Below the pieces are notes generated by a model. It saw only the letters and a program-made list of their open reading frames with translations. It searched no databases and had not been told where the DNA came from. A DNA stretch of 64,000 bases from Micavibrio sp. GTDB lineage: Bacteria > Pseudomonadota > Alphaproteobacteria > Micavibrionales > Micavibrionaceae. Both the position numbers and the translations under genes were made by a program. This document shows positions 930 through 63,715 of the stretch, piece after piece (the stretch's first letter is position 1; each line of letters starts with the position of its first letter). The DNA is taken from the NCBI GenBank assembly GCA_021604545.1, contig BQJE01000006.1, positions 1 to 64,000 of the forward strand, read 5' to 3'.

Positions 930-3794
930 ATGAGAAAGCTGATGAGGCCGCTGGAAAAGCGGCTTATGTTAGACGCATCTATTACCGCTATTGGCGGCAA
1001 TGTCCTATGGCTTGATGGTGCCGACCAATCAACAATTTTAGATGCAGACGGCGATGATGCCAATTCTGGTGGTGCGTTTAGTGGTTCTGTTGCGACGTGG
1101 CAGGACAAATCCGGCAACAATAACGACCTTTCTCACGGTACACCAGCAAGACAACCCACTTACAATGCAGGTGCAAAAAATGGCAACGGCACAATCACAT
1201 TTGATGGTGGTGATGCTCTTTTTGCAACCGACGCCTCTATTCCGAGCCTGGATCTTTCAACAAATGGCTTCACCTTGTTTGCCATCGTAGATACAGCAAC
1301 AAGTGCCGGCAACAGAATCATCATCAATAAAGAAAGCTCTTACGAAATTGGCGTGAATGCTGGGCAGATTCAAGCAGCTATAAATACGGTTGCCGGAGGC
1401 AACTGGGCCTGGGGCGGCACGGCTAACAACGCTCTTTCAACAACATGGCATATTGTTGGATTCGAACACGCCAACACAACATGGCGCTTTCACCAAGATG
1501 GCAATGTCACCGAAGAAATTGTCCCGGCAAACAATCAAACCGGAAACATCACCCCGACCAATGATATTTTTACGGTTGGAGCCAGAGGTGCCGCCTCTCC
1601 CAATGGAAGCTGGTTCCTGGGTGATATGGCTGAAGTTATCTTATTCAATCGTGAATTAACATCCGATGAATATCACGATGTCGAAAATTACCTGGCCAAT
1701 AAATGGGGCATAGCCACTACCAATGCCACCCCGACAGAAGTTACAAGCAACACAGCGTATTTCAGCAACGCCGGAACAATAACGCTCGACACCTCTTTGC
1801 TATCCTATACCGATATAGACAACACGGATTCCCTACTGAGCTATGAAGTTACGACACTTGCGGGTCCAGGGATTTTGAAGCTCAACGGAACGGCTATGAA
1901 TGTCAACGAAACCTTTACACAACAAGACCTCATCAGCGGTAATGTAACCTACGACCACCTAACAAGTGTAACGAGCGCTGACAGTTTTCAATTCACAGTC
2001 ACAGACCGTCTGGTAACAACAGCTATTCAGACATTTAACATTGATATGGCGGCCACAGAAACGGCCAACAACCCGGTAACACTTGATGAAGGTGCCGTTA
2101 CCGATATCACCAATGCTGATTTGGCCCATACAGATAACGTCAGCCTTGGGTTTCGTGAGCAGTTGACGATCAGTTCATCATTAACCAATTCAAACCTTAC
2201 TGACTTCACCCTACTCCTGACCGAAGCTAATATATCCGCCAATTTCTGGGCAAATGTAAGGGCTGATGGCTCAGATATTTATGTGACGCTGGCTGATGGC
2301 GTGACCAAGCTCAACCGAGAGCTGGTGACCTTTAATAAAGTCGGCCAAACTATGGAGCTACATGTCAAGATTCCAACAATTTCTTCAACAGTTGATACCG
2401 ATCTTTATCTTTATTTTGGTGGCCTCACGTCAGAAAGCAATAACGCCGGAACCTGGGATGCCAACACACAAATGGTGCAGCATTTTGAAGAGACAGCAGG
2501 CACCGCAACAGATAGTACGGTAAATGGCCTTGATGGCACAGTGACAGCGGGGTCTTATGGTGCCGCCGGGCAAATAGGTGATGGTGTTTCTTTTCAAGCT
2601 GGGCGTAGCCTTACTGTTAATCAGGCCCTGGATACATCCAATACTTTCACGATAGATTTCTGGGCGGATTATACCGCGACCGGTACATGGCAGACAACGT
2701 TCTTCCAGAATGTTGGCGCTGCGTGGAACGAATTGCTGACGGTGAATGCCGCCACTGAACAATTTACAATCTGGACAAAAACAGGTGGTGCAGGTGTTGC
2801 TTTGGGTATGCAAGCTGATTATGTCGGCTGGCACAAATATACTTTTGCCTATGACGGCACCAATCTGGATATGTACAAAGATGGCGGGCTGGTGAATTCT
2901 ATTGTTTATAACTGGTCGTCTGCTCCAACGGGATTCCAAGCTGGCCAGCGCACTGATTCCAACCAGCCGACTAACGCCTTCTTTGATGAGTACACGTTCG
3001 ATACAACTGAGCGTTCTGCGGACTGGATTGCCGCTGAATATGCCATGCAAAATACACCCGCGGCATTCTACTCTCTTGGTGTTACTGAGGCTCTTCCAAC
3101 AACACTGACTTATACGCTAACTGACTTACCGGATAACGGAGATGTTACTCTAAACGGTGCCGTGCTTGGCCTCGGCGCTACATTTACACAAGGCGACATT
3201 GATGGGGGCCTGATTAAATACCAACACAATGACAGTGATACGACAATGGACAGCTTTGATTTTTTACTAAGCAGCAGCACCGGGAATGCACTACCTGCTG
3301 ACCGAACCTTTACACTGAATATTAATGCAATTAATGATGCACCGATTAACAACCCAGCTGAAGATTCCTCGGGTGATTCAAACAATAGGCCGTCACAAGC
3401 AAACGACGATGAACGCTCAGATTCAGGCCGCAACTCAGATAACGGCATTGCCTCAACGGGCGAAATTATTCGATCTATTCTTAACGGCTCCGGACAATCA
3501 TCTTTTTACGGTGATTCCTTAAGCGAAATTATGCGCAACAACAATACGCTTGAAGTCAGCCGCATTGTAGAATCCATCGACAACTCCCATGACGAACGTG
3601 ACGACAAAGTAACCAACGTTATCGAACGCGGCCTGAATGATGACAATCAAAATGACGATCCGGCCTGGTGGAAAATCCTTGACGGCATTATACCTGAAGA
3701 CAACGAAAGCGCACCTGACCTTGACGAAGAGATCGCCGCCGTCACGCAGCAATTCGATGCCAGCGTCCAGGAATTCATGGAGGCGCTGGAATGA
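930..3794 (+). CDS. LEPR-XLL-type LamG/DUF2341 surface protein 1
   Basis: Large secreted or surface protein of 954 aa. I chose the ATG at 930 because an AG-rich ribosome site precedes it and the protein then starts like its tandem paralogue (RKLMRPLEKRLMLDAS). That N-terminus fits the LEPR-XLL motif seen at the start of very large exported proteins; it is not a Sec signal. Approximate order: motif 1-16, LamG-like lectin fold 20-260, cadherin/CSPG-like repeat 263-370, DUF2341-like 403-497, second LamG 513-715, second CSPG-like repeat 725-805, polar linker, conserved C-terminal region 840-954 ending in an acidic helix. It overlaps the next gene by ATGA. The likely role is adhesion or glycan binding; the ligand is unknown. 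Confidence 0.85.
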   Translation: MRKLMRPLEKRLMLDASITAIGGNVLWLDGADQSTILDADGDDANSGGAFSGSVATWQDKSGNNNDLSHGTPARQPTYNAGAKNGNGTITFDGGDALFATDASIPSLDLSTNGFTLFAIVDTATSAGNRIIINKESSYEIGVNAGQIQAAINTVAGGNWAWGGTANNALSTTWHIVGFEHANTTWRFHQDGNVTEEIVPANNQTGNITPTNDIFTVGARGAASPNGSWFLGDMAEVILFNRELTSDEYHDVENYLANKWGIATTNATPTEVTSNTAYFSNAGTITLDTSLLSYTDIDNTDSLLSYEVTTLAGPGILKLNGTAMNVNETFTQQDLISGNVTYDHLTSVTSADSFQFTVTDRLVTTAIQTFNIDMAATETANNPVTLDEGAVTDITNADLAHTDNVSLGFREQLTISSSLTNSNLTDFTLLLTEANISANFWANVRADGSDIYVTLADGVTKLNRELVTFNKVGQTMELHVKIPTISSTVDTDLYLYFGGLTSESNNAGTWDANTQMVQHFEETAGTATDSTVNGLDGTVTAGSYGAAGQIGDGVSFQAGRSLTVNQALDTSNTFTIDFWADYTATGTWQTTFFQNVGAAWNELLTVNAATEQFTIWTKTGGAGVALGMQADYVGWHKYTFAYDGTNLDMYKDGGLVNSIVYNWSSAPTGFQAGQRTDSNQPTNAFFDEYTFDTTERSADWIAAEYAMQNTPAAFYSLGVTEALPTTLTYTLTDLPDNGDVTLNGAVLGLGATFTQGDIDGGLIKYQHNDSDTTMDSFDFLLSSSTGNALPADRTFTLNINAINDAPINNPAEDSSGDSNNRPSQANDDERSDSGRNSDNGIASTGEIIRSILNGSGQSSFYGDSLSEIMRNNNTLEVSRIVESIDNSHDERDDKVTNVIERGLNDDNQNDDPAWWKILDGIIPEDNESAPDLDEEIAAVTQQFDASVQEFMEALE

Positions 3795-6685
3795 AAAAAC
3801 TAATGCGACCTTTGGAAAAGCGTTTGATGCTTGATGCTTCACTAGTTGCCGATATTGGTGGCAGTGTTTTGTGGCTGGATGGTGATGATCAGGCCAGCAT
3901 TCTTGATGCTGACGGCGATGATGCCAGTTCCGGTGGCGCATTTAGCGGTACCGTCGCGACATGGCAAGACAAAAGCGGTAACAATAATGATATGACGCAA
4001 GGCAATGGCGCACGCGAGGCCACGTTCGTCAGCAATGTTCAAAACGGAAACAGTGTTCTTCGTTTTGATGGCGGTGATGATTTCTTATCCGGGAATGTTG
4101 GCGCTCTTGGTAATGAATACACAACCTTTGCTGTTGGATATTTTGGCCAGCTTAATCAGGGCGTCAATGACTATGATTATCTTGCATCGATCGGATCGGG
4201 CGGCGCTTATGTGATGAGTAGTATTTCGCGCACCGCAAGCAACTGGGGCCCTGGCGCAGATCGATACTATGCATATGATGGTTCAGCGCCGAGAGAAGGG
4301 CCGGTTATTGCGGGCCAAACATGGAATTTATATACGCAGGAAATTACACCGGGCGCGCCGCGTCACAGCTTAAGAATTGATGGTGCCAATCAGGTGGTTG
4401 AGGATAGCGCCGCCAACCACAATAACAATGGCCAGATTGGCATTGGTCATTTTAGCGTCAGCAACACACACCATCTGAATGGTGATGTTGGTGAAATTCT
4501 TATTTTTGATGGCGCGCTTTCAGCCGATTCCCGTCACGACATCGAAAATTATCTGGCGACTAAATGGGGATTGGCCAATACCAATATAGCCCCTGTGAAC
4601 ATAGAAAATACTGGCGCTCTGTTTAGCAATTCAGGCACGGTAACACTTGATAAAAATATGTTGCTGTCAACCGATGCGGATAACACGGATTCCAGATTAA
4701 TTTATACAGTAACAACCCTGGCAGCCAATGGAACAATGGAGCTGAATGGTGTCGCCATAAATGTGAATGACACATTCACGCAACAGGATATCATCAATGG
4801 CAATGTGACCTACGACCACAATCCCAACGTGGCCGGATCAGACAGCTTTCATTTCACAGTCAGTGATCGCTTTGATACAAGCGCCGTACAGACCTTCAAT
4901 TTTAATCCGGCTGCAAATCAAACAACAAATGCGCCGATAACCCTTGACGAAGGGGCCAGCACGGACATCACAAATACTGATCTGTCCGCCACCAACACAA
5001 ACGGTGTTGCCTGGTATGATGCAAACTGGGATTACCGCCAGAAACTCACCATTGATTCAGGAATGATTGGCTCAGATTTAACTAACTTCACCATGATGCT
5101 ATCGGACCATCATTTGTCCAGTGACTTTTGGGCACAGGTCAAAGCAGATGGATCGGATATAGTTGTCACCTCAGCCGATGGCACAACAAAACTAAGCCGC
5201 GATATGGTGAGCTTTGATAATGTCGGCGAATCTATCGAAATGCATATTAAAGTACCGCTCGTTTCTTCTACTGTTGATACCGATATCTACCTTTACTTTG
5301 GTAATGCGGCAGGCACAGAAACCAATGACACAGCAGCGTGGAGTGATTTTTCCGGCGTATGGCATTTGGATGAATTGGCCGGTAACGCGATAGATTCAAC
5401 CGTCAATGCCAATAACGGCACAATCAATGGTGGCCTTACGCAAGGTGTGACAGGGCATCTTGGGCGTGCCGCAGACTTTGACGATGCCAATGATTTAATC
5501 AGCATAGCAATGACCAAGGGGGCTATAAGTACCTTCAGTTTTTGGGCAACATGGGATGGCGCAGGCAATGACATGCCGATTTTAGCCGGACCTAACGGAG
5601 CCGGACCGGATCTTTTTCTTGCTGGCGGCAATGTTAGTTGGAACACATGGAATGGCTCCGCCAATGCGTTTGGCGCAACCCCTGCCGCGGCATCTGATGG
5701 TGCTTTCCATCACTATACGCTCGTTGTTGCTCCTGGTAATACGAACTTATACTTCGACAACACTCTTGTAGGAACTGCAACATATGCCGACCCTTCCGCC
5801 ACAACAATTTTTCAAATCGGCGGGATAGTGCCCTATACGTGGGGTGGGGCCATAGATGAGATGCGCGTTTCCAATGTGGCCCGCTCTGCCGACTGGGTTG
5901 CTGCAGAATATAACAATCAGATCGACCCGTCTTCGTTCTTCAGTAGCAACCTTGTTGAAACACAAGACGAAACGCTGACTTATACGGTCACAGATTTACC
6001 AAATAGCGGAGCGCTTAACTTGAATGGCGCTGCGCTTAACGTGAACGACATGTTTACCCAAGATGACATTGATAATAACCGTATCACTTATGTTCATGAC
6101 GACAGTGACACAACACTCGACAGTTTTGATTTCAGAGTAAGTAATATTTTGGGCAATGTTTTACCCGTTACGCAAACTTTTACGTTGAACATTAATGCGA
6201 TTAATGACGCGCCGATTAATAACCCGGTTGCAGACTCTTCCGATGATGCAGGGTCAAACAATAATTCATCACAAAGAAACGAGAATGATCGTACGAATTT
6301 AGAGATTGACTCTGATAACAGTATTTCCTCAACTGGCGAAATTATCCGCTCCATCTTAAGTGGTTCACAATCATCTTTCTACGGCAATGCACTGAATGAA
6401 ATTATGCGCACGCATAACACCTTTGAAATCAGCCGAACTCTAGAAGATATCAATGATTTCTATAACAAAAATGATGACAAGGTCATCAATGTGATCGAAC
6501 GCGGCCTGAATGATGAGGGCAATAAGGACGATCCAGCCTGGTGGGATCTTCTGGAAACCAACGAAGTGGCGTTACCCGAGGAAGAAACAGGGGCAGAAGC
6601 CTCTACGCCTGACCTTAGCGACCAAATAATGCAAGATTTAGGGACTTTTGACCAGAATCTTCAAGATTTTCTGGAAACTCTTTAA
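3791..6685 (+). CDS. LEPR-XLL-type LamG/DUF2341 surface protein 2
   Basis: 964-aa paralogue of the preceding gene, with the same domains in the same order: KLMRPLEKRLMLDAS motif at the start, LamG-like 20-260, CSPG-like 270-370, DUF2341-like 407-506, LamG 516-720, CSPG-like 727-808, linker, conserved C-terminal region 848-964. The ATG overlaps the TGA of gene 1, so the two are translationally coupled. The C-terminal region shares STGEIIRSIL, VIERGLND and DPAWW with gene 1 and is better conserved than the linker before it. This suggests a tandem duplication followed by divergence of the binding domains. No catalytic motif was seen. Function is inferred from domains only. Confidence 0.85.
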   Translation: MKKLMRPLEKRLMLDASLVADIGGSVLWLDGDDQASILDADGDDASSGGAFSGTVATWQDKSGNNNDMTQGNGAREATFVSNVQNGNSVLRFDGGDDFLSGNVGALGNEYTTFAVGYFGQLNQGVNDYDYLASIGSGGAYVMSSISRTASNWGPGADRYYAYDGSAPREGPVIAGQTWNLYTQEITPGAPRHSLRIDGANQVVEDSAANHNNNGQIGIGHFSVSNTHHLNGDVGEILIFDGALSADSRHDIENYLATKWGLANTNIAPVNIENTGALFSNSGTVTLDKNMLLSTDADNTDSRLIYTVTTLAANGTMELNGVAINVNDTFTQQDIINGNVTYDHNPNVAGSDSFHFTVSDRFDTSAVQTFNFNPAANQTTNAPITLDEGASTDITNTDLSATNTNGVAWYDANWDYRQKLTIDSGMIGSDLTNFTMMLSDHHLSSDFWAQVKADGSDIVVTSADGTTKLSRDMVSFDNVGESIEMHIKVPLVSSTVDTDIYLYFGNAAGTETNDTAAWSDFSGVWHLDELAGNAIDSTVNANNGTINGGLTQGVTGHLGRAADFDDANDLISIAMTKGAISTFSFWATWDGAGNDMPILAGPNGAGPDLFLAGGNVSWNTWNGSANAFGATPAAASDGAFHHYTLVVAPGNTNLYFDNTLVGTATYADPSATTIFQIGGIVPYTWGGAIDEMRVSNVARSADWVAAEYNNQIDPSSFFSSNLVETQDETLTYTVTDLPNSGALNLNGAALNVNDMFTQDDIDNNRITYVHDDSDTTLDSFDFRVSNILGNVLPVTQTFTLNINAINDAPINNPVADSSDDAGSNNNSSQRNENDRTNLEIDSDNSISSTGEIIRSILSGSQSSFYGNALNEIMRTHNTFEISRTLEDINDFYNKNDDKVINVIERGLNDEGNKDDPAWWDLLETNEVALPEEETGAEASTPDLSDQIMQDLGTFDQNLQDFLETL

Positions 6686-57363: not shown

Positions 57364-58146
57364 ATGACTGGAAAAAACAACGGATCAGGAAACGGGCACG
57401 ATAAGGATGAGGATGACAATGTCGTCCGCATGCCAACGCTGGCCGAACGTGACCGCATTAGAAAACAAAAAGACAAGCAGGAAAAGAGTTGGCGCAAGCA
57501 ATACAAAAAAGACAATACAGGACAAGACGTACCGTTTTTTAATGCTGGTAAGATACCGCCGCTAACCCGCATCATCATTACTCTTTTGGTGATTGTTCAC
57601 CTCCCGCTATATCTCTTCGTTGATCCGATTGCGCGACACGAATTGTTTTTTACTTTTGGTTTTGTCCCTGCCGTTTTTACCGGCGCGGAGCCATGGAGCT
57701 GGCTGGCCCTCGTGACCCCCTTCACGCATCTTTTTATCCATGGCGGCTGGATGCATTTAGTTTTTAATGCGGCCATGATGCTGGTGATGGGCATGTTCAT
57801 GGAAACCACTTTTGGTGCCAAGCGCATGCTGATTTTCTTTTTTGTCAGCGGTATCTCTGGCGCCTTGTTTTACCTGCTCCTCAATCCGTTCCTGGCCGCG
57901 CCGGTTATCGGCGCCTCGGGCAGCATTAGCGGGTTGTTCGGCGTTACATTCCTGCTTTTATACGAACGCGGTATGATGGGGCCCATTGGAAAGCGCGGCC
58001 CGTTGCCATTGATATTCTTATGGATGGCGCTGATTACCGGTATGGGGATGCTCGGTGGTGATGTCGCGTGGCAAGCCCATTTAGGCGGCTTCCTTGGTGG
58101 TCTTGGGCTGTTCTACGCAATGCGCAAAGGCATCGTCAGACTTTAG
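57364..58146 (+). CDS. Rhomboid-family intramembrane serine protease
   Basis: 260 aa. A polar, charged cytoplasmic head of about 60 residues precedes six or so membrane helices. Active site: Ser about 185 in GASGSISGLFG and His about 239 in AWQAHLGGFLGG; also HGGWMHLVFNAAMM with the conserved His-Asn. It cleaves transmembrane proteins within the bilayer. No ribosome site precedes the ATG; an extended -10 (TGTTATGCT) ends 6 nt before it, suggesting a leaderless message. Its 3' end overlaps hemY by 11 bp, tail to tail. Confidence 0.92.
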   Translation: MTGKNNGSGNGHDKDEDDNVVRMPTLAERDRIRKQKDKQEKSWRKQYKKDNTGQDVPFFNAGKIPPLTRIIITLLVIVHLPLYLFVDPIARHELFFTFGFVPAVFTGAEPWSWLALVTPFTHLFIHGGWMHLVFNAAMMLVMGMFMETTFGAKRMLIFFFVSGISGALFYLLLNPFLAAPVIGASGSISGLFGVTFLLLYERGMMGPIGKRGPLPLIFLWMALITGMGMLGGDVAWQAHLGGFLGGLGLFYAMRKGIVRL

Positions 58147-59515
58147 GCGCTTCCAGCATAACGTCTTCTTCACTTCCATCCGCAGCCAAAAAAGCACTGG
58201 CACTGCCGGCATCAGGACAAGCCCATTCAACCGTATTAAAACCCTGCGCTGAAACCGGCGCCCATTCCAAATAAATACGACCTGTTTCACTGCACACCCA
58301 TTGCCGATCCAGTTGCGCATCTTCCGCTTTATCAGTCCACCCCATAATTGCTTCTTCGTTTTGGGTTGAGCGCTCTTCCAAAGACACCAGCATCGTATAA
58401 ACACGGCGCGAAGGCTCAACCTCCTCTGCCGCCTTCAAATGCGCACGTGCTTCGCCCCATAACCCGTCATCCATCGCCGCCTGCGCGACTGCTATGTGGC
58501 CTTCACCACTGGCTGGTTTTAGGGCCAATAATTTTTCAAACCATTTTAGCCGCGCCATCGGATCATCCGTTTTATTCTTCTTTTTGCTAATCTTAGGTGC
58601 CGCCAGATCCCACACCTCAGCCAGTTCCGGATGCGGCGCAGCCTTCCAGGCTTTCTCAATTGCGGACACAGCTTTCAAACGGTGGCGTTTTTGAATATGC
58701 ATTTTGGCCAAACGCGTCACCGTCGGCGCAAAGGATGGATCATAGCCATGTGCCTTTTTTAATTTTTTAAAGGCCGCCGTACGATCATCTTGTTCTAAAT
58801 CCTTATCGGCCTCAGCGAGCAACATGGCTATACGATCACTATTGGCTTTTTCAGTTTTAACGGCACCGGCCCGCTCGGCACGATATAAAGTTTTGCGCGC
58901 TGCCTCCCAATCCTGCAACCTGATTTCAAGATCATACACCACACGCAAGATCCATGGCTGCTTTGGATGCAGGCGCAATGCCTCGCGCCCCAGCTCCAGT
59001 GCTTTGGGGTAATTTTCCATGTCCAGCGCCGCTTGCAGCAGCCCCCTTACACCCAAAAATGCTGCGTTCTTGTCCTGCAGCAAAAGGGCAAAAGTTTCGC
59101 GTGCCTCCTCCTCCTTGCCACTCATACGCTCAGCCTGCGCCTGGAGTAGCAAAGGCAGGCCCGTATCCTCAGGAAGAAACCGGGTTGCTCTTTGTGCCTG
59201 GTAAACTGCGCTTTTGGAATCCCCTGCTGCTACGGCCGTTAATCCCAAAGTCAAAGCTTTGTAGCCTTTCTCACGGCACAGATATTCACGGTAGCGTTTT
59301 AGACTTTTGGGGAAGTCAGCAACACCTTTAATAACGCCGAAAACAGCGATTGCCAGCATAACCGCAAAAAGGAAGACAAGAAGGAAGACGCCCATATGGA
59401 GGGTAAATTTATATTCCATCCATTCAATGGCGACACTGCCCGGTCGGTCAGCCACCCAAACGGCAAGCCCCACAAGCAAGGCGACCTTGATCATAAAAAT
59501 GATGGCCCTGATCAT
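58136..59515 (-). CDS. hemY: HemY-like TPR membrane protein
   Basis: 459 aa. GGAGGACATC precedes the ATG. Two N-terminal membrane helices (MIKVALLVGLAVWVADRPG; MGVFLLVFLFAVMLAIAVFG) match the HemY N-terminal domain, then a chain of TPR helices (LGREALRLHPKQPWILRVV, LKKAHGYDPSFAPTVTRLA). It faces the periplasm or cytoplasm as a scaffold; it is not protoporphyrinogen oxidase. The order hemC - hemD - mitofilin - hemY is common in this class. Third gene of the minus-strand heme group. Confidence 0.88.
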   Translation of the reverse strand: MIRAIIFMIKVALLVGLAVWVADRPGSVAIEWMEYKFTLHMGVFLLVFLFAVMLAIAVFGVIKGVADFPKSLKRYREYLCREKGYKALTLGLTAVAAGDSKSAVYQAQRATRFLPEDTGLPLLLQAQAERMSGKEEEARETFALLLQDKNAAFLGVRGLLQAALDMENYPKALELGREALRLHPKQPWILRVVYDLEIRLQDWEAARKTLYRAERAGAVKTEKANSDRIAMLLAEADKDLEQDDRTAAFKKLKKAHGYDPSFAPTVTRLAKMHIQKRHRLKAVSAIEKAWKAAPHPELAEVWDLAAPKISKKKNKTDDPMARLKWFEKLLALKPASGEGHIAVAQAAMDDGLWGEARAHLKAAEEVEPSRRVYTMLVSLEERSTQNEEAIMGWTDKAEDAQLDRQWVCSETGRIYLEWAPVSAQGFNTVEWACPDAGSASAFLAADGSEEDVMLEAPKV

Positions 59516-59555: not shown

Positions 59556-62009
59556 CTAGCGTGGTTTCAGAATATTAATGCCAGTTTCTTCATTTTGAAT
59601 AAGTCTGCCGCTTCCCGGCAAAATATCTTTTCCTGCAGCCAATGCCTTATCACCAAAGGCACGCAGGTTAATGGTCTGCGTTGCCATCTGCTTGGCGTTT
59701 TTTGCCAGCAGGCTCGCCTGCGCCTTGTTAAGAAAAGGAGCCACAACTTCAGCCGCCGGGCCTTCAAGCGTTTGTATCTGTGAGATAGCGTCTTCAATAT
59801 TGCCGGCCTCCAGCAGGTTTTGCGCACGCACGACTGTCGCTTGTGTATCCGTACCGGTAACCAGCTCACCATCTTTTTCAACCTGTAAAAGGTCATTAAA
59901 GCGGGCTTTGGCTTTTTCCTGCACAGAGATGTCCTCGCCTTTCAAAGATGACACAACAACATCGCCTGCCAATCCTCTAAATTCTGCCGACAAGCCCTCC
60001 GGGGTTAAAACACCGTCCTGCGCATGCGGCGCCAGACGCTCTAAAGAAGACTTCAGCTCTAGATTGTCTTCGCCGACAAGGTTCATCAAAAGCTGTAGAT
60101 CATCTTCAAAAGACTCATTATCACGATTGAGAGAGCCACGAAGTTTCGACAGGCCCAATAGCATGGCCGCTGCTTTTAATTCCTGCTGTGGTACGCCTTC
60201 AAATGTCTGCCCAAGAGCGGGACTTTGTTCCCGCGCCTGCTGGAGAGCGCCATCAAAATTTTCCAGATTGCCATCCAGACCACCGACCAATGCGTTCAAC
60301 TCCGACAGGCTCTGACCAAGCTGCTGCTGACCAGGAATGCTTTGCCGCCAGGCTTGCGCCCGCTGCAGCATCGCTACCATCTGCGGTGAGCCACCGGCCA
60401 GATCGGCAACATGGGTCTCCAGTCTTATCACCCTTTCTTGTAGTGATCCGGCATCTTCAGCCAGCACATCATCAGAAATCGTCTTGGCAGCATCAACAGC
60501 AAGAGAAACACTTTCCTGCGCCTCCTTAGCCTGTTCCTGCAGCGATTCCATACGCTGTTCAAAACCTTCCGGGATCATATTACGGAGGAAAGACTGTTCT
60601 TCCTTAACGGCTTCCACTTCGGTTTCAATCTGCCCCACTTTCTCGACTTTCGGCCATAAAAGCGCGGCCAGCGCCCCAATGGCCAACACAACAAGAAGGG
60701 CATTAATGAGCGTTGAACGTGTCACGGCTTTTTTCTCCGAAGCGGCAAATTCTTTCTCTATATTATTTTGCAGCGGAAATGGCGGTTTCCCGCCGCCGCC
60801 CTTACTTCCCTTAACTTCCGCAGCCTTAGTAGACTCTTCCGCCCGCGCCTCAGGCACAACCCGCGCCTGCTTGGCCGCTTCATTTTCATTGGCCGCATCC
60901 GCTCTTTCAAGCACGCCGTCCAGATTGACATTATGGTCTTTGGCCGCCTGCAACAGGGCATCAAGACGGGTTCCCGGAATGACATTGCGTTTTTTCCACC
61001 CCTGAACCGTCGTTACCGGCACAGACATCTTGGTGGCCATCGGACGGATTCCGCCGAATTTTTCAATGACGTCTTCTGCGTTGCTGATTGCGTTTTGACT
61101 TGTTTTGCTCATGATCTCGATCTCCTCACAACGTTCGGGGGCGAGTGCACATACATCCTTGATAAGGCTCAGCATTCCCTGCCTGTCAGGCTGGCTGGCT
61201 GTGTACGTACCCGCCCATGAAATAATCCGTACGCACTCTAGCACGCCGCTACTTATACACAAGGCCTTTATATGCGATAACGCCCCGGTCAGTTGGTTCT
61301 CCTTCGCCAGGACAAGAAAATTTTCAGCCGTACGTCTGGAGAAAAATGTCACGGCATCAATCTCACCATTTTGAATCTTATCGATACAAATTTTACTTAA
61401 CGCTTTAACTTTTTCGGCGCGATAAACCACCAACGTGTCAGCATTCACCCCTCCATTTTTGAGCATCTCGTCAATTGGTCGCGCGACATGTTGCCCACGA
61501 ACATGCAGAAACAGGATTTTATTGCCGTCGTCACCGGACCCGTTATCCGGACCCGCACTATCCTTATCTGGGCCCACATTACTTTGTACCTTTATCGTAT
61601 TATTCTTCTCTGTGAGCGTATTATTCTTTTCTGTAATCATGGCGCCGCCCTCTTCCGTGATAACATTACGCGCCCCCTTTAGAAGAATATCCACCAACTC
61701 CTCCCCACCCCCTTTTGCATTATGTAAATAATTATAGCCGTGTTTTTTTGCTTCTTCATAGGTGTTATGACCCACACAATAAGTTTCGATATTACGTTCC
61801 GAAGAGGCCGCGGCAAAAATTCTCACCGCGTTGGCGCTGGTAAAAATCAGCCCCTCATACCCGGATAAATCCGGCACCTCAAAATCGCGCGCCAGAACTT
61901 GAAGCATTGGTTCTGTAAAAGTTTGAAACCCCTCAGATTCCAGCTCGGCAGCATACCCATCCGCGTCTTCAACAGGCCTGGTTATGAGAATTAAATTTTG
62001 TCCGTCCAT
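59556..62009 (-). CDS. hemD: Uroporphyrinogen-III synthase / HTH / mitofilin (Mic60-like) fusion
   Basis: 817 aa in one open frame. Residues 1-290 are HemD-like (LILITRPVEDADGYAAELES, YEGLIFTSANAVRIFA, VVYRAEKVKAL, AVTFFSRRTAENFL), with an odd insertion around 115-150 (two ITEKNNT-like units, then GPDKDSAGPDNGSGDDG). About 305-365 look like a Cro/CI-type helix-turn-helix (FGGIRPMATKMSVPVTTVQGW). One membrane helix about 431-452 leads into a coiled coil (about 460-520) and a helical mitofilin-like C-terminus. Met300 has GAGGAG 9 nt upstream, so a separate 518-aa mitofilin product may also be made. HemD closes the tetrapyrrole ring; mitofilin shapes inner membranes. Confidence 0.85.
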   Translation of the reverse strand: MDGQNLILITRPVEDADGYAAELESEGFQTFTEPMLQVLARDFEVPDLSGYEGLIFTSANAVRIFAAASSERNIETYCVGHNTYEEAKKHGYNYLHNAKGGGEELVDILLKGARNVITEEGGAMITEKNNTLTEKNNTIKVQSNVGPDKDSAGPDNGSGDDGNKILFLHVRGQHVARPIDEMLKNGGVNADTLVVYRAEKVKALSKICIDKIQNGEIDAVTFFSRRTAENFLVLAKENQLTGALSHIKALCISSGVLECVRIISWAGTYTASQPDRQGMLSLIKDVCALAPERCEEIEIMSKTSQNAISNAEDVIEKFGGIRPMATKMSVPVTTVQGWKKRNVIPGTRLDALLQAAKDHNVNLDGVLERADAANENEAAKQARVVPEARAEESTKAAEVKGSKGGGGKPPFPLQNNIEKEFAASEKKAVTRSTLINALLVVLAIGALAALLWPKVEKVGQIETEVEAVKEEQSFLRNMIPEGFEQRMESLQEQAKEAQESVSLAVDAAKTISDDVLAEDAGSLQERVIRLETHVADLAGGSPQMVAMLQRAQAWRQSIPGQQQLGQSLSELNALVGGLDGNLENFDGALQQAREQSPALGQTFEGVPQQELKAAAMLLGLSKLRGSLNRDNESFEDDLQLLMNLVGEDNLELKSSLERLAPHAQDGVLTPEGLSAEFRGLAGDVVVSSLKGEDISVQEKAKARFNDLLQVEKDGELVTGTDTQATVVRAQNLLEAGNIEDAISQIQTLEGPAAEVVAPFLNKAQASLLAKNAKQMATQTINLRAFGDKALAAGKDILPGSGRLIQNEETGINILKPR

Positions 62010-62014
62010 GAGCT

Positions 62015-62941
62015 CTATATCACCCCTTCCGGCAGACGGGATTTTAACGATTCACCCAATTTTTTTCCAAGCTGAATAGCCTCTTCTGACGTCGAAGCCT
62101 CTCCGCAAATTTCATCTGACCAAAATTTATTTCCGTCTTCAGAAGCCAACATAACCTGCAAAAATACTTTATTATTTTCTAATATGGCGTGCGCCCCCAC
62201 CGGTGTGTGGCAGGAACCCCCTATCTCTTGGATAAATGATCGCTCTGCATTTACACAAATATTTGTATTTAAACAGTTTATTTGGCTAAATTTGGCTATC
62301 AATTGTTCGTTTTTGGCCTTTAATTCTAGGCCGATTGCGCCTTGTCCGGCGGCCGGAATCATGTCTTTTTTGTCCAAAATTTGTGTGATCTCACCGGCCA
62401 GTCCGAGTCGCTTCAAACCGGCCACCGCAAGCACAGTTGCATCGACATCAGCCGATTTTAGCTTTTCTAGTCTGGTCCCAACATTGCCGCGAAAGGGCAC
62501 GATCTTGAGGCTCCGTTTTCGGGCCAACAGGAAGGCTTTTCGCCGTGGGCTGGTGGTACCGACAACCGCGTCTTCTGGTAAATCATCGAGAGTCGCCCCT
62601 GTACGTGTAATGAGGGCATCTCTCGGGTCTTCGCGGGGTAACATACAGGGTATAATGAGCCCCTCCGGCAGGGTCGAATCCATGTCCTTCATCGAGTGCA
62701 CAGCGACGTCGATTTCATCGGCCAGAAGCGCCTCCTCAATCTCCTTGGCGAACAGCGCTTTGCCACCCTCATGATCCGGCAGGGCCACCTCGCCATCCGC
62801 CGGGTTCCAGTCCCCAGAGGTCTTAATAATGACCGTCTCGGTTTCAACTTCCGGCCCCAAGGCGGCCTTAACCATCTCCACCTGCTTCAGCGCCAGCGGC
62901 GAGCCCCGCGATCCTATTTTGATTTTTTTTGAATTTGTCAT
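62015..62941 (-). CDS. hemC: Porphobilinogen deaminase
   Basis: 308 aa. KIGSRGSPLALKQVEMVKA at the N-terminus, HSMKDMDSTLPEGL, and RDALITRTGA; the cofactor cysteine is in EIGGSCHTPVGAHA. It joins four porphobilinogens into hydroxymethylbilane for HemD next door. I start at 62941: no ribosome site exists for it or for the in-frame ATG eight codons upstream, but a -10 box ends 6 nt before it, so a leaderless message is likely. The gap to hemD is 5 bp. Confidence 0.94.
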   Translation of the reverse strand: MTNSKKIKIGSRGSPLALKQVEMVKAALGPEVETETVIIKTSGDWNPADGEVALPDHEGGKALFAKEIEEALLADEIDVAVHSMKDMDSTLPEGLIIPCMLPREDPRDALITRTGATLDDLPEDAVVGTTSPRRKAFLLARKRSLKIVPFRGNVGTRLEKLKSADVDATVLAVAGLKRLGLAGEITQILDKKDMIPAAGQGAIGLELKAKNEQLIAKFSQINCLNTNICVNAERSFIQEIGGSCHTPVGAHAILENNKVFLQVMLASEDGNKFWSDEICGEASTSEEAIQLGKKLGESLKSRLPEGVI

Positions 62942-62947
62942 GGTCAA

Positions 62948-62976
62948 TTTGTAAACCACATCCACTCAACTGTCAT
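62948..62976 (-). promoter_or_regulatory. Promoter of hemC, predicted leaderless
   Basis: Minus strand ATGACA, 17 bp, TACAAA, then 6 nt to the ATG at 62941. Confidence 0.5.
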
Positions 62977-63046: not shown

Positions 63047-63715
63047 ATGTTTTTTACCAAAGAAGAAATTAAAGCCCGCTGGGCGAAGAAAAGGGCGCCG
63101 ACGAGACGAAAAGCTGCGCAAAAAGCAGGCTTTGCCCTCGCTTTAGAAATTGCCAATAATGCCCTTTTTGATGTTAAAACTCGCGATGGAGAAGCTTATA
63201 TCCTTCATCCTTTGGCAGTTGCTTTTAATAATACAAATTCAATTTCCAAACACACTATTGGTGTTCTCCATGATGTCGTCGAAGATAGTGATTGGACACT
63301 AGAAGACTTACGTGAAGTCGGTTTTAGTGACCGCATAATCCAAGGTGTCGATGCTGTTACAAAGCGCTCGGGCGAGCTTTATTTTGATTTTATTGAGCGT
63401 TGTGGGCAAGCCGAGGAAGACGGCATTGATATTAAGTTGAAAGACCTTGATCATAACTCAAAAGCCAATAGAAACCCCAGCGCCATGCCTACCGCAAAAC
63501 AATCCCTAAAGCAGCGGATCTATAATGTCTCTTATTACTATCTTGTTGGTATCAAAACAGAAACTATCAACCCTGGAACACCTATGCTTGATTTTCTACT
63601 TTCTCATCAAGCTTATGCGGCAGACCCTATAAGTAGTAACGAGCTATTAGAAAAGGGCTCTTCAGATGCAAGACGTTTACCAACTCCGGAAAGTCCGCAC
63701 ATCACTACCAACTAA
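63047..63715 (+). CDS. HD-domain (SpoT/RelA-like) phosphohydrolase
   Basis: 222 aa. Basic head (KARWAKKRAPTRRKAAQK), then an HD_4-type domain: YILHPLAVA supplies the first His, HTIGVLHDVVEDSDWTLEDL the His-Asp pair, ending near IKLKDLDHNSKANRN. This is the layout of the (p)ppGpp hydrolase half of SpoT, without synthetase or TGS domains, so a small alarmone hydrolase or another phosphohydrolase is possible. The C-terminus is longer than needed (PISSNELLEKGSSDARRL). No ribosome site; predicted leaderless. Confidence 0.82.
   Translation: MFFTKEEIKARWAKKRAPTRRKAAQKAGFALALEIANNALFDVKTRDGEAYILHPLAVAFNNTNSISKHTIGVLHDVVEDSDWTLEDLREVGFSDRIIQGVDAVTKRSGELYFDFIERCGQAEEDGIDIKLKDLDHNSKANRNPSAMPTAKQSLKQRIYNVSYYYLVGIKTETINPGTPMLDFLLSHQAYAADPISSNELLEKGSSDARRLPTPESPHITTN

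Follow-up and report, generated by a model that had tools for sequence, protein, structure and literature searches.

In the window (the whole 64,000-nucleotide stretch of Micavibrio sp. DNA analyzed here), positions 59556 to 62009 of the minus strand form a single 817-codon frame without a stop. From the N to the C terminus, this frame encodes HemD (uroporphyrinogen-III synthase; U3S), a Cro-like helix-turn-helix (HTH), a transmembrane (TM) helix, and a Mic60/mitofilin domain, and it lies within the gene order hemC-hemD-mic60-hemY (Table 1). Earlier papers on Mic60 have reportedly remarked on this heme operon. The initial annotation had placed a heme enzyme, an HTH, and a mitofilin in one frame, and this was borne out: Pfam HEM4 (E = 2.2e-32; 112.5 bits against a curated cutoff of 27.5), NF046037 (carph-isopro; 60.7 bits against 38), and Pfam Mitofilin (E = 5.2e-10; 39.3 bits against 27.4) all score above their cutoffs. 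We conclude that the 817-codon HemD-HTH-Mic60 frame is real, and it occurs just once in the genome. Divergent from hemC, an HD-type protein rather than tsaD is encoded at window positions 63047 to 63715 (plus strand); we take it to resemble ppGpp hydrolases.

Table 1. Features of the fused frame and its neighbors (window coordinates)
Feature	Position	Strand	Details
hemC (hydroxymethylbilane synthase)	62015..62965	(-)	Upstream operon gene; TIGR00212, 1.7e-94
HemD domain	61143..62003	(-)	Codons 3-289; PF02602 (HEM4); fold match to 4es6
Linker	61113..61142	(-)	Codons 290-299; low model confidence (pLDDT <50 at 291-303)
GAGGAG, Shine-Dalgarno (SD)-like	61122..61127	(-)	9 nt before ATG300; anti-SD energy -9.3
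Internal ATG, codon 300	61110..61112	(-)	Mic60 start of unfused relatives
Cro-like HTH (carph-isopro)	60921..61079	(-)	Codons 311-363; NF046037; single copy in genome
Transmembrane segment	60657..60713	(-)	Approximately codons 433-451; mean hydropathy 2.55; long helix 414-451 in model
Mitofilin domain	59691..60191	(-)	Codons 607-773; PF09731
HemY-like TPR membrane protein	58136..59515	(-)	Downstream gene; PF07219 HemY_N, 1.5e-18

HemD and Mic60 parts of the protein

In a structure model of the whole 817-aa protein, HemD (4-287) and the HTH were confident, and confidence was low at 291-303 and very low at codons 376-426. Residues 4-287 adopt the two-domain HemD fold and match solved HemD structures (Z 20.6, rmsd 3.5, and 234 residues aligned for Pseudomonas aeruginosa HemD, 4es6), although phmmer, run on the full-length protein, gave no match at 0.01 among PDB sequences. 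The HemD part missed the cutoff of the NCBIfam equivalog NF006621 (82.8 bits against 223), matching it in two stretches around a hinge insert; the fused frames L202, L216, L227, L232, and L247 missed it as well. The insert itself (window 61524-61667; codons 115-162) is a repeat-like, low-complexity stretch at the hinge between the two HemD lobes, with pLDDT below 50. A similar stretch is present in the fused congener G003 and absent from the separate congeners G001 and G002.

In a genome-wide profile search, the window HemD domain was the only HEM4 match, and genes for URO-D and ferrochelatase were present in the same genome. The latter two are adjacent to each other on a different contig, outside the window (G000:C9:5254-7301). 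The fused HemD is the only U3S found, and the fusion protein should provide the U3S activity, because HemD has neither a stop of its own nor a second copy and the downstream heme genes are there.

A single N-terminal TM helix precedes a helical region (helices 461-602 in the model), as in Mic60. The fold-search lists contained no mitofilin structure; the helical part of the model was low in confidence, and this absence carries no weight. In Mic60, the mitofilin domain is periplasmic and the N-terminal side is cytoplasmic.

The HTH at the start of Mic60

The HTH model alone had phage Cro proteins as its closest matches (Z 5.6-6.1; Xfaso1, N15, and P22 Cro). These fold matches are modest (Z at most 6.1), and the Cro label comes from the sequence profile together with the top four fold-search rows, all of which are Cro. 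The HTH had been flagged initially as an oddity of this gene, a view that did not survive comparison with relatives: it is present in 108 of the 116 distinct loci from the window's taxonomic order, Micavibrionales (the order set), it begins Mic60 in the unfused relatives, and it is the best conserved part of Mic60 (mean identity to the window of 0.67, versus 0.60 for the mitofilin domain). On sequence grounds, the HTH belongs to Mic60; its position at the start of Mic60 in separate relatives rules out a HemD part or a stray domain.

A carph-isopro-like HTH also occurs on 18 of 90 alphaproteobacterial loci outside the window's family (L224-L313); judging from these loci, HTH-bearing Mic60 is widespread. 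In L062, an HTH-bearing Mic60 lies beside a gene that we take from its sequence to be DnaA-like, and not beside hemD (1483-2955 and 3119-4786, plus strand).

Recurrence of the fusion at one operon junction

Within the window's genus, G003 is fused alike, with the same linker length and frame, and neither it nor the window gene has a stop codon between the HemD and Mic60 parts. G001 and G002 carry separate genes, which meet in an ATGA overlap in G001; in G002, hemD ends in TAA, followed by the same GTGAGGAG motif ahead of the ATG. The initial annotation had proposed comparing relatives for a junction stop and had named separate products in all relatives as the result that would refute it. The stop is indeed kept in these two congeners, but relatives show both states. 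On the tree, separate congeners surround the window fusion, whose simplest origin is that hemD lost its stop.

In the window's family, 98 of the 104 genomes searched matched, not all of which were analyzed as loci. Across the order set, 108 loci carry both genes, and hemD-mic60 is one frame in 11 of them. The flanking junctions were never fused (hemC-hemD, 0/96; mic60-hemY, 0/103; Fisher P = 9e-4 and 8e-4, respectively, versus hemD-mic60). Among 96 separate hemD-mic60 pairs measured, 27 overlap, 18 of those as ATGA. Three of the 11 fusions are members of a sister family, f3, in which 15 of 18 genomes matched and all 15 loci, from four genera, are fused; these three recur in that count of 15 and were removed from the tree. 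Linkers in f3 are short: in 12/15, the HTH is reached after 10-15 codons. Three of the 15 f3 fusions (L214, L215, and L216) have lost the HTH and are still fused; the fusion has thus outlived the HTH.

We also sampled other alphaproteobacterial loci (the class sample). Mitofilin was found in 93 of 240 genomes; three of these, from the window's family, were counted in the order set instead, and of the 90 loci taken, 8 were excluded because no HemD lay in the stretch. Fusion was found in 24 of the remaining 82, and again not at hemC-hemD (0/79) or mic60-hemY (0/85). One place each was taken from G165 (three Mitofilin places) and G346 (two); the two further places in G165 lie near a contig start (G165:C1:148-714 and 5130-5696). 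Eight fused frames were tested with Pfam; HEM4 exceeded its cutoff in all eight and Mitofilin in six (L202 and L216 fell below). A fusion unique to the window is ruled out by the f3 and class fusions. On a tree of 202 loci (FastTree, midpoint root), 47 fused frames fall into 23 clades, a count that is approximate, with 23 changes between fused and separate states, where shuffling the labels gives 42.7 on average. The fusion is therefore repeated and specific to the hemD-mic60 junction, the flanking junctions never being fused.

Retention of the internal Mic60 start

A likely internal start had been annotated right at the end of HemD, and the features agree with it: the HemD structural match stops at 287, and ATG300 follows about a dozen codons past the domain end, with GAGGAG 9 nt before it. 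We compared the best linker ATG and its anti-SD energy with all same-length windows within the same gene. For the window gene, an energy of -9.3 before an in-frame ATG was matched by approximately 1 in 1,000 such windows (P = 0.001). Calculated with an assumed anti-SD sequence that may not be the window genome's own, the energies were -9.3 for ATG300, -9.5 for hemY, and -6.0 for hemD. With the internal SD nearly as strong in energy as the SD of hemY and stronger than that of hemD, more free Mic60 than fusion protein may be made.

Among the fused frames, the internal start reached P < 0.05 in 4 of the 8 from the window's family, in 12 of the 24 from the class sample, and in none of the 15 from f3. 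Counted over the 23 clades from per-frame P values to three decimals, 12 clades reach it with their best member and 8 with their worst. A linker ATG is wholly absent from 6 of the 24 class fused frames. Thus, many fusions retain the Mic60 start, whereas in others it is gone.

G003 keeps the same SD and ATG as the window gene at 76% amino-acid identity and 57% four-fold-site identity. In another fused pair, L232/L236, the ATG and SD are both kept at 58% identity, with only 3 of 10 Met kept overall, which suggests selection. Synonymous sites gave mixed evidence of selection on the SD: at the G000/G003 junction (G000 being the window's genome), 16 of 18 synonymous codons are identical versus 65% overall, a level reached by 5.4% of windows and suggestive for this pair only; in three other fused pairs, the junction level was not significant (reached by 11.8%, 42%, and 97% of windows).

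DISCUSSION

The initial annotation had left open whether this frame yields a fused protein or two proteins. Probably both are made: the fused protein is expected because no stop precedes Mic60, and free Mic60 would come from the internal start, but a separate HemD, part of the two-protein alternative, is not expected. The explanation that we consider probable is that the hemD stop was lost inside the hemC-hemD-mic60-hemY operon, creating a HemD-Mic60 fusion gene. Ribosomes starting at hemD would make the 817-aa protein, with HemD and the HTH predicted to be cytoplasmic and tethered by the Mic60 TM helix and with the coiled coil and mitofilin domain predicted to be periplasmic; ribosomes starting at ATG300 would make an additional, free 518-aa Mic60. 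Because nothing halts HemD translation before Mic60, every HemD should be fused. Most likely, HemD is made exclusively as a Mic60-tethered domain and Mic60 exists in both forms, and mixed Mic60 oligomers could carry HemD near membrane-bound heme proteins. The absence of an interdomain stop, the single HEM4, and the strong internal start, at P < 0.05 in 8 to 12 of 23 clades, argue for this explanation, as do the ATG and SD kept in L232/L236, the synonymous codons kept at the G000/G003 junction, and the junction specificity of the fusion.

Fusions without the start are themselves stable, as seen in f3 (15/15 without P < 0.05) and in the class frames that lack a linker ATG. ATG300 may perhaps be vestigial, a relic of recent stop loss, and we regard as possible but doubtful an obligate fusion with a single 817-aa product in which ATG300 is decaying. 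That a whole family has remained fused while lacking a strong internal start indicates that a start-less fusion works, and the synonymous constraint at the junction is borderline; against this, neither the SD nor the ATG has decayed in the window gene, and G003 has both at the divergence given above, and strong internal starts are kept in many other clades. Cleavage of the finished fusion protein, in the disordered linker or the HTH linker, into separate HemD and Mic60 is unlikely. The very low model confidence at 291-303 and 376-426 resembles that of disordered stretches, but the f3 linkers are short. A sequencing or assembly error that made two ordinary genes look like one, through a missing stop or a frameshift between them, is very improbable and was rejected as the likely cause, even though G001 and G002 are separate and the genomes near the window's are draft assemblies: G003 carries the same fusion, linker length, frame, SD, and ATG at 76% amino-acid identity, and fusion recurs in 23 clades but never at the two flanking junctions.

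Parts of this arrangement are already known. In the portion of PMC7641849 available to us, the alphaproteobacterial operon comprises four genes, HemC-HemD-mitofilin-HemY, the same four in the same order as in the window, with a tsaD gene head to head with it and with a diverged HemX, homologous to mitofilin, at the mic60 position. That portion treats the genes singly and mentions no fusion, whereas the window hemD and mic60 are one frame. A HemD-HemX fusion exists as an NCBI family, NF005411 (PRK06975, fused HemD/HemX), which by its title joins an N-terminal HemD to a membrane protein as the window protein does. The membrane part of the latter is Mic60 by Pfam, however, and it bears a Cro-like HTH and keeps an internal start; in the NCBIfam search, NF005411 did not match the window protein at E ≤ 1 and reached just 37.1 bits against 414 on the fused frame L227 (model positions 5-309 of 660). 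With Mic60/mitofilin of alphaproteobacteria and mitochondria (PF09731), the window protein shares the TM helix, the helical region, and the C-terminal mitofilin domain; it differs in adding an N-terminal HTH and HemD on the presumed cytoplasmic side. Its HTH scores above the NF046037 cutoff and its model is nearest to Cro, but here the domain sits on a membrane protein, and DNA binding is putative. In the open-licence literature that we searched, no paper described a HemD-Mic60 fusion, though one may be in print, including among work on alphaproteobacterial Mic60. What looks new is a fusion that recurs at this junction specifically and retains an internal start.

Fused proteins are often partners. 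Recurrence in 23 clades at one junction, and never at those flanking it, is a strong lead for a partnership of bacterial Mic60 with heme synthesis. Tolerance alone could also explain recurrence, as the HemD C terminus and the Mic60 N terminus are both expected to be cytoplasmic. Separate genes, two-product genes, and start-less fusions offer natural contrasts for HemD tethering. In mitochondria, MICOS is reported with a ferrochelatase complex in the accessible part of PMC9163361. More tentatively, Mic60 might be an ancient heme-synthesis scaffold to which HemD was joined some twenty times because membrane tethering helps, with two-product genes setting how Mic60 is divided between loaded and free forms; the mitochondrial association (PMC9163361) might then descend from the bacterial partnership, and, through its conserved Cro-like HTH, this Mic60 might bind DNA at the membrane and thereby link the operon or nucleoid to it. 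A Mic60-heme partnership in bacteria would bear on why mitochondrial MICOS meets ferrochelatase.
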